This document shows, piece after piece, positions 2,595-24,144 of a stretch of 28,456 nucleotides of DNA. Below the pieces are notes generated by a model. That model was not told where the DNA came from. It made no database searches and saw nothing but the letters and a program-made list of their open reading frames with translations. Made by a program: the position numbers and the translations under genes. Origin of the DNA: a virus; IMG/VR virus record IMGVR_UViG_3300031578_000261, positions 1 to 28,456 of that record, one strand, 5' to 3'. Within the stretch, counting starts at the first letter, position 1. Every line of letters starts with the position of its first letter.

Positions 2595-3127
2595 TGGCGG
2601 AACGTAAGTTTTTAGATTTTCTTGATATGTTTGACGGCGGCGGCGCTGGTCAGATGGGCGACAAGTTCGAGGGCGGTGGGCTTATCTCCGCACTGGGCAA
2701 CTTGGTGGCATCGCCCTACGGCTCACAGGACGAAGAGCGTAAGAAGGCCCGCATGGCGTTCTACGGTCCTAGCGTGCAGCCCACGTTGTCCACGCAGTCC
2801 GTCAATGGCACTCCTCAGCGCAACTACGACGGGTCAGGCATGACCCCCGCGACTGCTTACGTTGGCACTCCTCAGCGCAACTACGACGGGTCAGGCATGA
2901 CCCCCGCGACTGCTTACGTTGGCCCGATGCCGCCCGTCAACGCCACTTCCCAGCGCAACATCGTGGGGTCAGGCATGAACCCCCTGAATGCTTACGTTGA
3001 CCCGATGCAGCGCTTTGCGGAGGACTTGATTGAGATGTATGGGCCGGACACTGCCAACATGGTTCTGAATAGTGGGATAGCCGATCAGGCTTTCCGATCC
3101 TACGTTGAGCGCGGGTATAAGTTTTGA
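2594..3127 (+). CDS. Hypothetical protein with tandem 19-residue repeats
   Basis: A 177-residue protein of unknown function. The start is the ATG in the TGATG junction with the large terminase, with AAGGGG 10-15 bases upstream; an earlier in-frame codon at 2552 lies inside the terminase. The middle holds two identical 19-residue repeats (GTPQRNYDGSGMTPATAYV) and a third, diverged copy (ATSQRNIVGSGMNPLNAYV). The C-terminal 40 residues look like a compact helical segment (EDLIEMYGPDTANMVLNSG). Glycine-rich, low-complexity N-terminus. It sits between packaging and head-tail genes, so a minor virion role is possible but unproven. Confidence 0.7.
   Translation: MAERKFLDFLDMFDGGGAGQMGDKFEGGGLISALGNLVASPYGSQDEERKKARMAFYGPSVQPTLSTQSVNGTPQRNYDGSGMTPATAYVGTPQRNYDGSGMTPATAYVGPMPPVNATSQRNIVGSGMNPLNAYVDPMQRFAEDLIEMYGPDTANMVLNSGIADQAFRSYVERGYKF
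2807..2998 (+). repeat. 57-bp tandem coding repeat
   Basis: The first two units, 2807-2863 and 2864-2920, are identical over 57 bp and directly abutting. A diverged third unit lies at 2942-2998 after a 21-bp spacer. Each encodes 19 residues around SQRN/PQRN...GSGM.P..AYV and keeps the frame. Perfect identity of the first two units points to recent duplication or gene conversion. Confidence 0.9.
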
Positions 3128-3140
3128 AAAGGATGTTTTG

Positions 3141-3233
3141 ATGAAAGCACCAGTGTTCAAGACCTGCAAGGGCTGCCCAACCCCCGCCGCGTGCAAGCGC
3201 GCTGGCAAGTGCTTGGGTAAGAGGCGCAAGTAG
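3141..3233 (+). CDS. Tiny Cys/Lys-rich protein (30 aa)
   Basis: A 30-residue reading frame. It has AAAGGA upstream of its ATG and starts 13 nt after the previous stop. The product has four cysteines (C9, C12, C18, C24) with a CxGC pair near the start (TCKGCPTPAACK) and ends in a very basic tail GKRRK. This could be a small zinc-binding or nucleic-acid-binding protein, but the spacing matches no family I can name. Its TAG stop shares one G with the GTG start of the next gene. Tiny basic proteins at this place are common in marine phages. Confidence 0.6.
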   Translation: MKAPVFKTCKGCPTPAACKRAGKCLGKRRK

Positions 3234-3385
3234 TGGGCCTGTATAGCAACATTGCCGCCAAGAAAAAGCGCATTGCCGCTGGGTCTGGCGAGAAGATGCG
3301 TAAGGTCGGCAGCAAGGGCGCTCCGACTGCTAAAGCGTTCAAGCAGGCCGCCAAGACAGCGAAGAAGCCGAAGGACAAAAAGTAG
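3233..3385 (+). CDS. Tiny lysine-rich conserved phage protein (50 aa)
   Basis: A 50-residue, strongly basic protein starting at a GTG that overlaps the preceding TAG stop (TAGTG). The core motif KRIAAGSGEKMRK followed by GAPTAKAFKQAAKTAKK resembles a short conserved protein I recognise from many marine podovirus genomes, usually left unannotated. It has no hydrophobic core, so it is probably a flexible, nucleic-acid-associated or internal virion peptide; this is inference. It ends in another TAGTG overlap with the next gene. Confidence 0.65.
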   Translation: MGLYSNIAAKKKRIAAGSGEKMRKVGSKGAPTAKAFKQAAKTAKKPKDKK

Positions 3386-3738
3386 TGGGCGTATTGGATT
3401 TCTTTGGCCGCGAGGCTGGTCAGCGTCGGCGCGCTGCGCTTGACGAATTTGGCCGTGACATTGAATATTACGTCCCGTCTGGGCTTCGGCCAGCTGTGGG
3501 CTTGCTTGCTGAGATGACGCCGAACCGCGCCAATGAGCGCGCCGCTATGGCATCCGACCGCATGTTTCAGCCTGACCGCACTGTTGGGCAGCGTGTCGGC
3601 GATTTCGGAGAGATGGTGTCTGAGGTCGCTGCCGGGGCTGCGGCCATGCTTGGCGTTAGCGCGCTGGATGTGGAATCGGCTATGGCCCAAGGGCACCAGC
3701 CACCACAACCTCAGGGCCTATTAGGAGGCGTTCAGTAA
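3385..3738 (+). CDS. Hypothetical virion-associated protein
   Basis: A 117-residue protein starting at a GTG that overlaps the preceding TAG. The N-terminus MGVLDFFGREAGQRRRAALDE is amphipathic and basic; the centre (residues about 35-75) carries LLAEMTPNRANERAAMASDR; a hydrophobic, alanine-rich helix (VSEVAAGAAAMLGVSALDV) follows, then a proline/glutamine tail. I do not recognise a named family, though similar proteins occur in this place in marine phages. Its stop overlaps the adaptor gene by 1 nt (TAATG), with AGGAGG upstream. A minor structural or ejection role is possible but not shown. Confidence 0.6.
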   Translation: MGVLDFFGREAGQRRRAALDEFGRDIEYYVPSGLRPAVGLLAEMTPNRANERAAMASDRMFQPDRTVGQRVGDFGEMVSEVAAGAAAMLGVSALDVESAMAQGHQPPQPQGLLGGVQ

Positions 3739-21671: not shown

Positions 21672-22804
21672 TGCCAGCAAAGCCACTGAGCGATGAGTTG
21701 GCGCTGGAGGCGCTGCAACTGGTTGATGAGTATGGAAGCGTAGGCAAAGCGTCCCGCGCGGCGGGCTTGCCCCTCGAAACATTGCGGCACAGGCGGAACA
21801 CGGCAATCAAGCGCGGGCTGAACCTTTCGGGCGGCGTGCGCGAAACGATACGCCGCGCAAGCCTAAATCCGACTGAGGCCAAGGGCGGCTGGAAACACAT
21901 CTATGATGACGAGGGTAAAAAGGTTGAGGCTGTCAGGTGGGCGGCGGGCGAGATTGACGCCGAAACCATGCTGGACAAAATCCGCGAGGCCTTTGATGAC
22001 GTGCCAGCCGCGCCATACATCGCCAAGCCGGAAGTCGTGCGCGAGCGCAGCGTTGCATTCCTTCCCCATGCGGATTGGCACCTCGGCAGCGTTGTCACAT
22101 CCGACCATGTGGGACGGGACTACAACCGCAAGATCGCGGTGGAGCGGCTCAAAGACGGCTTTTCGCAGTGCATGGGCGCTATCCCGGCATCAGAGGTGGC
22201 AATCATCCTCAACGCTGGCGACCTGACCCACACGAACAGCGACAGGGATGAGACAGACCGCAGCAAGCACAAGCTGAAAGTTGAGGGCACTCACCACGAC
22301 AATATCAGGTTGGCCATTGAATCAACGATCTGGATGATCGACCGTGCGCGCGAAACGCATGGGGAAGTGATTTACACCGCCCGCCCTGGCAACCACGATG
22401 GACTGACACCGACATTCCTGACGCCCGCGCTTGAGCAGCGATACCGAGACGATCCGCGCGTGACGATTGAGACGGATCAGCGCGAGACGTGGATATGGCA
22501 GCGTGACCGCCTGTTCCTATCGGCGCATCACGGCCACGGCCTCAAGGTGGAGAAGTTTTGCGCAAATATCCCGGCGCGGTTTCCTCGGCAGTTCGGCGTG
22601 TCAGACCATTGGTATTTCTTCACCGGGCATTTGCATCACAGGACCGAGAACACCTATGGCGGGATTACCCATCGCCAGTTACCGCCCGTGTGCAGCATAG
22701 ACGCGCACGGAGATGGCATGGGCTACGCGGACCGCCCCGGCATGTCAGCCATGCGGTTTGATACCGTTGAGGGCCTGCGCAGCGAGTATATTGTCAATCT
22801 TTAG
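21671..22804 (+). CDS. HTH-fused metallophosphoesterase
   Basis: A 377-residue calcineurin-type phosphoesterase with an N-terminal DNA-binding domain. Residues 6-50 are an HTH (ELALEALQLVDEYGSVGKASRAAGLPLETLRHR). Metal-binding motifs are D135-x-H137 (HADWHLG), G183-D184 (NAGDLTH), N241-H242-D243 (RPGNHDG), H286-H289 (AHHGHG) and G319-H-L-H-H (TGHLHH). All conserved positions are present, so it should be active on a phosphodiester or nucleotide. This domain pairing occurs in phages and is often loosely named a phosphoesterase or repair nuclease. The last codons lie in a repeat copied twice downstream. Confidence 0.85.
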   Translation: MPAKPLSDELALEALQLVDEYGSVGKASRAAGLPLETLRHRRNTAIKRGLNLSGGVRETIRRASLNPTEAKGGWKHIYDDEGKKVEAVRWAAGEIDAETMLDKIREAFDDVPAAPYIAKPEVVRERSVAFLPHADWHLGSVVTSDHVGRDYNRKIAVERLKDGFSQCMGAIPASEVAIILNAGDLTHTNSDRDETDRSKHKLKVEGTHHDNIRLAIESTIWMIDRARETHGEVIYTARPGNHDGLTPTFLTPALEQRYRDDPRVTIETDQRETWIWQRDRLFLSAHHGHGLKVEKFCANIPARFPRQFGVSDHWYFFTGHLHHRTENTYGGITHRQLPPVCSIDAHGDGMGYADRPGMSAMRFDTVEGLRSEYIVNL

Positions 22805-23247
22805 TGTCCAGTTTTGAAATCTTATGATACTGCGCTTCGGTTATCGCGCATGTGACATGCGTAAAAGTTAAGATGCGCAGCGAGTATATTGTTAATCTTT
22901 AGTGTGGGCATGGTTACTCGACCTCTTGGGATTCAGTGGGGGCGTTCTGACGACCTCCAAACCCGTCACGGAAAACCCGGCACCCCTCTTACTCTAAAGG
23001 CACCGGATAGGCCATATGGACTTGCAATGCGATCCATATGAACTTATATCATCAGTCAAGCTAGGAATGAGCGCCAACACATGGAAAACTTTGTTCTGGA
23101 ACGTCCTGCGCCGCCCTTGGTTATTACTTGCGGCTGTTTGCTCATCTCACTTCTCCAATCAATTTCTGATACTGCGCTTCGGTTATCGCGCATGTGACAT
23201 GCGTAAAAGTTAAGATGCGCAGCGAGTATATTGTCAATCTTTAGTGT
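22777..23247. repeat. Triplicated gene-end repeat
   Basis: A segment of 81 bp occurs at 22825-22905 and 23167-23247 with a single mismatch. Its right half (GCGCAGCGAGTATATTGT and on through CTTTAG) is the 3' end of the phosphoesterase gene, found a third time in place at 22777-22804. Copies of this right half start at 22777, 22875 and 23217. The spacing is 98 bp and then 342 bp, so the second interval carries about 244 extra bases. The repeat itself can fold: ATAC/GTAT and TGCGC/GCGCA arms with an inner CGCATG/CATGCG hairpin. Confidence 0.9.
22805..23233. other. Rearranged convergent junction without an intact gene
   Basis: This stretch lies between the phosphoesterase (+) and the methyltransferase cassette (-). 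It holds extra copies of the junction repeat, orphan 3' ends of minus-strand reading frames (AITEAQYHKISKLDTKD and AITEAQYQKLIGEVR), and about 244 bp of unrelated DNA between 22906 and 23160. That DNA contains an 8-bp inverted repeat CATATGGA/TCCATATG at 23013-23040. Short frames on both strands exist, for example a 29-codon minus frame at 23056-23145 (starting MSKQPQVITKGG) that overlaps an AITE-type end by ATGA, but none can be supported alone. It reads as a recombination scar. Confidence 0.6.
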
Positions 23248-23329
23248 CCATTTTTGAAAGTTTCTGATACTCAATTTCGGTAATCGCCCCCAGCGCGCGC
23301 AGGGTGGCTAGGGTGTATGGGCGGATCAT
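23234..23329 (-). CDS. 31-residue protein at the end of the methyltransferase cassette
   Basis: A short frame starting at 23329, overlapping the methyltransferase stop by 4 nt (ATGA). The product starts MIRPYTLATLRALGAITE and continues to end KLSKMDTKD. The AITExxYxKL element is also found in two broken copies just downstream, so this is probably the one intact member of a small gene family. Its 3' end lies in a copy of the phosphoesterase gene end. A helix-rich peptide of unknown function. It is supported by the coupled start and by the repeated protein-level pattern. Confidence 0.5.
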   Translation of the reverse strand: MIRPYTLATLRALGAITEIEYQKLSKMDTKD

Positions 23330-24144
23330 TTCTCGGCCTCTGCGGCCAAAATGGCGCGTCCTATCATTTCGGGGATTTGCGGGACGACGGCATTTCCGAG
23401 GGCTTTAAGTCTGTCCACCCTTCGGGGAACCCCATTAGCCACTCGACCCACGTTGGGTTCAGGGAGCCAGTGGAACCGGATCGCATCAACGCGCCCGGAA
23501 GGTAGTCTCTGTCCATCTGTGACGGGGGCTGCGTTGCGTTCTTCGCGTCTTGCAGCGTCGGCGTCGGCCAAAGGGATTGGTGCTTCACTTGCGCTGATAG
23601 CTTCGGCTCCCCCCGGCTGTTCCATTTCCCAGCCTTTCGATCCACATGATCGTCTGACACCGGAGTTTGCCACAATCCAGACCCTATCTCTGCGGTGCGG
23701 TAGGTTCGTGGCGCAAGCTGGAATAACAAACGCCCGGCAGGTGTAGCCTTGTCCTTCCAGGTCAGAAAGCACGTTGTCGAGGCCCATGCTGATGTGCCCA
23801 GCAACATTCTCTCCAATGACCCAAGCGGGCCGCAACTCGTCCACGAGCCGACTAAATTCCGGCCAGAGGTGGCGGTCATCTTCCTTGCCCCTGCGCTTCC
23901 CGGCAGTGGAGAAAGGCTGGCAGGGGTATCCCCCGCAAATAACGTCAACTGGTCCGACATGCTCTGCCCTCAATTTTCTTATGTCTTTGTGGATAGTAAC
24001 ATTTGGCCAGTGCTTTGCCAAAACGCGGCGTGGGAATGACTCAATCTCGCAGAAGGCGGCGGTTTCAAATCCGCCCGTTCGTTCAAGGCCAAGGCTAAAG
24101 CCGCCTATGCCGCTAAACAAGTCAAGAACGCGCAGCTTTTCCAT
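23326..24144 (-). CDS. DNA (cytosine-5) methyltransferase
   Basis: A 272-residue C5 methyltransferase that transfers a methyl group from S-adenosylmethionine to cytosine in a short DNA site. Motif I is DLFSGIGGFSLG (residues 8-19), motif IV GGYPCQPFS with catalytic C75, motif VI GENV (111-114), motif VIII HRRDRVWIVA, and motif X GNAVVP (250-255). The recognition region between motifs VIII and IX (about 160-235) is short. The start is the MEKLRVLDLF codon in a TGATG overlap; an upstream in-frame codon at 24207 lies inside the previous gene. No restriction enzyme gene is seen, so it probably protects phage DNA or changes host sites. Another reading frame lies inside it. Confidence 0.9.
   Translation of the reverse strand: MEKLRVLDLFSGIGGFSLGLERTGGFETAAFCEIESFPRRVLAKHWPNVTIHKDIRKLRAEHVGPVDVICGGYPCQPFSTAGKRRGKEDDRHLWPEFSRLVDELRPAWVIGENVAGHISMGLDNVLSDLEGQGYTCRAFVIPACATNLPHRRDRVWIVANSGVRRSCGSKGWEMEQPGGAEAISASEAPIPLADADAARREERNAAPVTDGQRLPSGRVDAIRFHWLPEPNVGRVANGVPRRVDRLKALGNAVVPQIPEMIGRAILAAEAEK
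23364..23960 (-). CDS. Candidate gene nested inside the methyltransferase (198 codons)
   Basis: A 198-codon open frame lying wholly inside the methyltransferase gene, on the same strand in another frame. Its ATG is preceded by TTGAGGGCAGAGC, a plausible ribosome site. The product looks like a protein and not like a chance shadow: it opens MSDQLTLFAGDTPASLSPLPG, then MTATSGRNL, the segment TTCFLTWKDKATPAGRLLFQL, two copies of LWxTP (SGLWQTP, QSLWPTP), and ends SLNPTWVEWLMGFPEGWTDL. I recognise this order (LTWK, RLLFQL, LWPTP, LNPxWVEWLMGFPxGWT) from proteins found beside C5 methyltransferases in phages and bacteria. It covers residues about 62-260 of the enzyme. A separate function is inferred; conservation forced by the other frame is the alternative. 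Confidence 0.5.
   Translation of the reverse strand: MSDQLTLFAGDTPASLSPLPGSAGARKMTATSGRNLVGSWTSCGPLGSLERMLLGTSAWASTTCFLTWKDKATPAGRLLFQLAPRTYRTAEIGSGLWQTPVSDDHVDRKAGKWNSRGEPKLSAQVKHQSLWPTPTLQDAKNATQPPSQMDRDYLPGALMRSGSTGSLNPTWVEWLMGFPEGWTDLKPSEMPSSRKSPK

Follow-up and report, generated by a model that had tools for sequence, protein, structure and literature searches.

Two phage genes that share one stretch of DNA, a C5-cytosine methyltransferase gene (M) and a second gene (N) nested in it, were found to encode what is probably a two-chain C5 methyltransferase (estimated probability 0.87), in which N is most likely the small (beta-like) subunit for motif IX and target recognition; the activity of the pair is predicted. 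Selection acts on both frames, N has its own start signals, the structural model of M has no ordered small domain, and motif IX lies in N.

The window (the whole stretch of DNA analysed) is an entire IMG/VR virus entry of 28,456 bases, whose gene products include a portal protein, an SU10-type adaptor, an endolysin-like protein, a DNA polymerase, a helicase and an endonuclease. M and N are both encoded on the minus strand. M ends with a stop codon at 23326 and has in-frame ATGs at 24144 (272 aa; 23326..24144) and 24207 (293 aa). N, which lies wholly inside M in the +1 frame relative to it, runs from an ATG at 23960 to 23364 (198 codons plus stop), and the Shine-Dalgarno-like sequence GAGGG (23967..23971, minus strand) stands 6 bases before its ATG. 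The motifs TTCFLTWK, GRLLFQL, SGLWQTP, SLWPTPT and SLNPTWVEWLMGFPEGWTDL were found in N, and no stop interrupts the M frame, which contains RRDRVWIVA (motif VIII) and ALGNAVVP (motif X). The original prediction, which named no strand, had given the same coordinates, N motifs, GAGGG and nesting, and had described the methyltransferase as intact across the overlap; the sequence agreed with it on each of these points. An 84-base direct repeat (22822-22905 and 23164-23247, 98% identity, copies 342 bases apart) sits between an exonuclease-like gene and M, and a shifted 72-base pair (22776-22847 and 23216-23287) is 88% identical.

PF00145 matched the M protein at E 1.3e-40, the match being confined to residues 26-181 (numbered on the 293-aa form), and phrog_363 matched it at E 1.5e-86. 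The M model was highly confident for motif X and for the greater part of motifs I-VIII, and aligned with M.HhaI at Z 23.6 and rmsd 2.9, with 200 residues aligned of 327. Residues 1-160 (23665..24144, minus strand) were assigned to the catalytic domain with motifs I-VIII (DLFSGIGG, PCQPFS, ENV, RRDRVWIVA), using the mostly high-confidence model and invariant alignment columns, and the motif X core (LGNAVVP) was placed at 23380..23400 (minus strand), where columns L249-P255 are near-invariant. Residues 167-247 (23404..23646, minus strand) take the place of the small domain of an ordinary C5 methyltransferase, yet their pLDDT was mostly <50 and they formed no ordered small domain; by substitution rates, the N frame is the better conserved of the two in this stretch. 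By the PF00145 match, the conserved motif X columns, the model and the fold match, M is a large (alpha-like) chain that holds motifs I-VIII and X. In an enterobacterial phage subfamily of M (L083, L318-L323), a motif II-III-like stretch precedes motif I, as if permuted, and the nested N is kept.

Relatives were gathered with the M protein as bait alone, so that the +1 frame played no part in their choice. Among the 49 non-redundant loci, the +1 frame was open in all 49, against 1.28 expected from M-synonymous recoding of each gene; before redundancy was removed, it was open over the N stretch in 79 of 80 M-baited loci, and the +2 frame over the same stretch contained many stops. Unlike M, canonical one-chain C5 methyltransferase genes had no open +1 frame (0/25; 13.8 stops observed, 13.5 expected), most of these controls being drawn from genomes that also carry nested loci and having a lower GC, for which the recoding expectation allows. 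An N profile was also run against bacterial and archaeal genomes: all of the 80 top-ranking loci had N nested in M in the +1 frame, and they span Alphaproteobacteria, Bacillota, Bacteroidota, Acidobacteriota and others. Three bacterial families were surveyed as well, with N present in 14/247, 11/250 and 45/248 genomes, and every N locus fetched from these surveys overlapped M in the +1 frame. Damaged or rearranged loci (L153, with one stop in N, and L234, L236 and Ochi17, which are frame-shifted) were left out of this support. In L234, L236 and L084, parts of M and N swap frames; these copies are pseudogenes, assembly errors or rearranged enzymes.

Constraint in each frame, the measurement that the original prediction had proposed, was estimated by pairwise counting, and M-silent change proved to be strongly suppressed in the overlap. 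At unchanged M residues, codon identity in the overlap compared with the part of M before it was 89 vs 75% for close pairs, 80 vs 59% for mid-range pairs and 71 vs 48% for far pairs. Changes silent in M and altering N occurred in the overlap at 0.22, 0.42 and 0.69 per site (close, mid and far) vs 0.53, 1.10 and 2.11 outside it, these rates being counting estimates with a simple correction and some distant pairs being saturated. In the catalytic part of the overlap, both frames are constrained. In the segment of M that separates motif VIII from motif X, more changes per site affect M alone than N alone, and N is therefore the better conserved frame there.

A start codon was present at the N start in 186/193 loci. 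Shine-Dalgarno-like 4-mers preceded the N start in 70% of the 193 loci, whereas among the remaining 2,319 out-of-frame ATGs of these genes the figure was 25%; for 5-mers the corresponding values were 51% and 7%.

For the identity of the N protein, an N profile was compared with 25 ordinary C5 methyltransferases. The best local match was to motif IX, with residues 166-183 of N (23412..23465, minus strand; SLNPTWVEWLMGFPEGWT) aligned to RLTSRMMARIQGFPDTWT at a score of 24.45; reversing the columns gave 10.9, and none of 60 column shuffles exceeded 17.7. The match spans 18 columns, with a single-comparison E of 0.013 and a nominal probability of 3%; because it is so short, the assignment of motif IX to N is of moderate strength. 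This was the sole motif IX-like block found, and the one-chain layout, in which a target-recognition domain and motif IX share a chain with motifs I-VIII and X, was not seen. The first ~90 residues of N are conserved and have no recognised counterpart; between this block and motif IX, the length of N varies widely among relatives. Such variation would suit a target-recognition region, and the variable stretch ahead of motif IX very likely is one. That N reads the target is nevertheless a less secure point than its motif IX, since PMC3404938 puts the predicted target-recognition domain of the two-chain enzyme M.EcoHK31I in the large subunit.

An AlphaFold model of N alone (92 sequences in the alignment) was poor, with mean pLDDT 60 and pTM 0.30, and no structural match to it was found; it was dropped as evidence on the fold. 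Such a poor model is as expected if N needs M to fold, though it is no evidence in itself. Comparison of the N sequence with solved structures gave chance matches only, and no N family was found in Pfam or NCBIfam. N did match PHROG phrog_1008, labelled 'DNA methyltransferase', at E 7.9e-33. This family thus appears to be built of N-frame proteins; its label names the enzyme, and the match is to the nested frame, not the catalytic one.

In two relatives, N sequence occurs outside the usual nesting. In L298 (positions 1308-2622; the genome belongs to the same family as Paenibacillus alvei), M ends directly behind motif VIII, and a single open reading frame, that of N, holds the target region, motif IX and then motif X (GRVPRLKMLGNGVVP), arranged as in an ordinary enzyme. 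A plasmid of Paenibacillus bovis (L087) encodes M and its nested N; immediately downstream of them comes another N-like open reading frame (2947-3411), which overlaps no methyltransferase and is possibly a spare specificity subunit; L286 has an identical second copy, and the two were therefore counted as one case. The many stand-alone relatives announced by the original prediction were largely not borne out: those checked (L086, L088) were loci in which one of two overlapping frames had been annotated, and the plasmid copy is the one clear instance.

On this evidence, N is almost certainly a real nested gene and not a shadow of M. The contrary explanation, that the N frame is untranslated and is conserved only as a by-product of M, through its protein sequence and codon use, had been the second of the two alternatives in the original prediction. 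Long +1 frames can indeed come up by chance in GC-rich genes, and for the gene in this window taken alone the N stretch stayed open in 2% of M-silent recoding trials (the loci in this test had been selected for complete N frames; the 49-locus comparison is its unbiased version). Openness in every one of those 49 loci, the suppression of M-silent change, the enrichment of start codons and Shine-Dalgarno-like sequences, the stand-alone plasmid copy and the rearranged L298 all point to selection on N independent of M, and the by-product explanation was rejected as scarcely credible. The same evidence upholds the first alternative, namely that N is a genuine overlapping gene and its product works together with the enzyme. 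Programmed +1 frameshifting, by which M and N would be joined in one polypeptide instead of two chains, is highly improbable: the relation between the frames is always +1, and indels swap the frames in some loci (L234, L236), but N has its own start codon and Shine-Dalgarno sequence at a conserved position ~100 codons ahead of any useful join, and joining would cost the product motif X, which this window encodes in the M frame.

If N is real, it might still bind or regulate the methyltransferase as a modulator or anti-restriction partner without being its motif IX or small-domain subunit. The shortness of the motif IX match, the conserved N-terminal block with no recognised counterpart and the failure of N alone to give a confident fold would all suit such a role. 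It is nevertheless quite improbable, as the M model lacks an ordered small domain and N supplies a motif IX-like block where one is needed, the N frame of L298 continues into motif X as in an ordinary enzyme, and N is essentially always found with M. The suggestion that N is a partner in, for example, target choice was supported, with a narrower likely role, namely to provide motif IX and probably the target-recognition region absent from M; for the anti-restriction option, nothing was found in its favour over a subunit role.

In the preferred two-subunit explanation, M would act as the catalytic large domain, binding AdoMet and performing the cytosine chemistry with motifs I-VIII and X, and would have no small domain of its own. 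Translation of N would begin at its own ribosome-binding site ~60 codons into M and end just before the end of M, yielding a small-domain piece made up of a variable, putatively target-reading region followed by motif IX. The two chains would then assemble into one active enzyme, as in M.EcoHK31I. In the phage, this enzyme would probably work as an orphan methyltransferase whose marks on the phage DNA might, for instance, protect it from host restriction.

Current annotation captures this arrangement unevenly. The records of phages Tadhana and K1ind3 annotate both frames, the nested gene of K1ind3 being named 'Mte8-like', a name that offers an indirect lead to possible homology with M.EcoHK31I. 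In the Porphyromonas (L086) and Cy-LDV1 (L088) records, the N frame is annotated, in the latter as 'methyltransferase', and the M frame was missed. All seven E. coli RefSeq regions examined annotate only M, with N present in +1. No published survey of the nested N family was found in the open literature searched. Many annotated 'orphan DNA cytosine methyltransferases' of phages and bacteria are probably half an enzyme whose other half was never annotated, and M expressed alone would for that reason be expected to give nothing. What stands out is how widespread the M/N arrangement is and that Pfam, NCBIfam and the E. coli annotation examined all lack it; the nested loci also form a deep, well-conserved natural set for the evolution of two proteins in one DNA stretch. 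A bolder and doubtful proposal is that nested beta subunits of C5 methyltransferases are among the most widespread fully nested same-strand protein genes of bacteria and phages, and that spare stand-alone betas, such as that of Paenibacillus bovis, allow the same catalytic subunit to act on two or more DNA targets.

In M.EcoHK31I, the small gene lies inside the large gene in another frame, and in the window and its relatives a small gene likewise overlaps a large one in another frame. The nested arrangement itself is therefore not new, M.EcoHK31I being a precedent from 1995. According to PMC3404938, M.EcoHK31I (YGGCCR) consists of two polypeptides, of which the small one carries motif IX (Lee, Kam and Shaw, 1995, cited there) and the large one motifs I-VIII and X. 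By that description, the division of motifs is the same as in M and N. Unlike M.EcoHK31I, which belongs to a restriction-modification system, M and N are phage-borne, and none of the neighbouring genes scanned was recognisable as a restriction-enzyme partner; and whereas the large chain of M.EcoHK31I is described there with a predicted target-recognition domain, the M model has no ordered domain at that place. The one-chain enzymes M.HhaI, M.HaeIII and Dcm share the fold of the catalytic domain with M, as the alignment with M.HhaI indicates, but combine it with a target-recognition domain and motif IX in one chain. M.AquI (CYCGRG) is also a two-polypeptide C5 methyltransferase divided after motif VIII, with motifs IX and X in its small chain (PMC3404938). 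The enzyme in this window would be divided at the same point, except that motif X stays in the large chain; in L298, within the same family, the N frame carries both IX and X and the division is AquI-like. In the features tested, M and N fit the M.EcoHK31I pattern.
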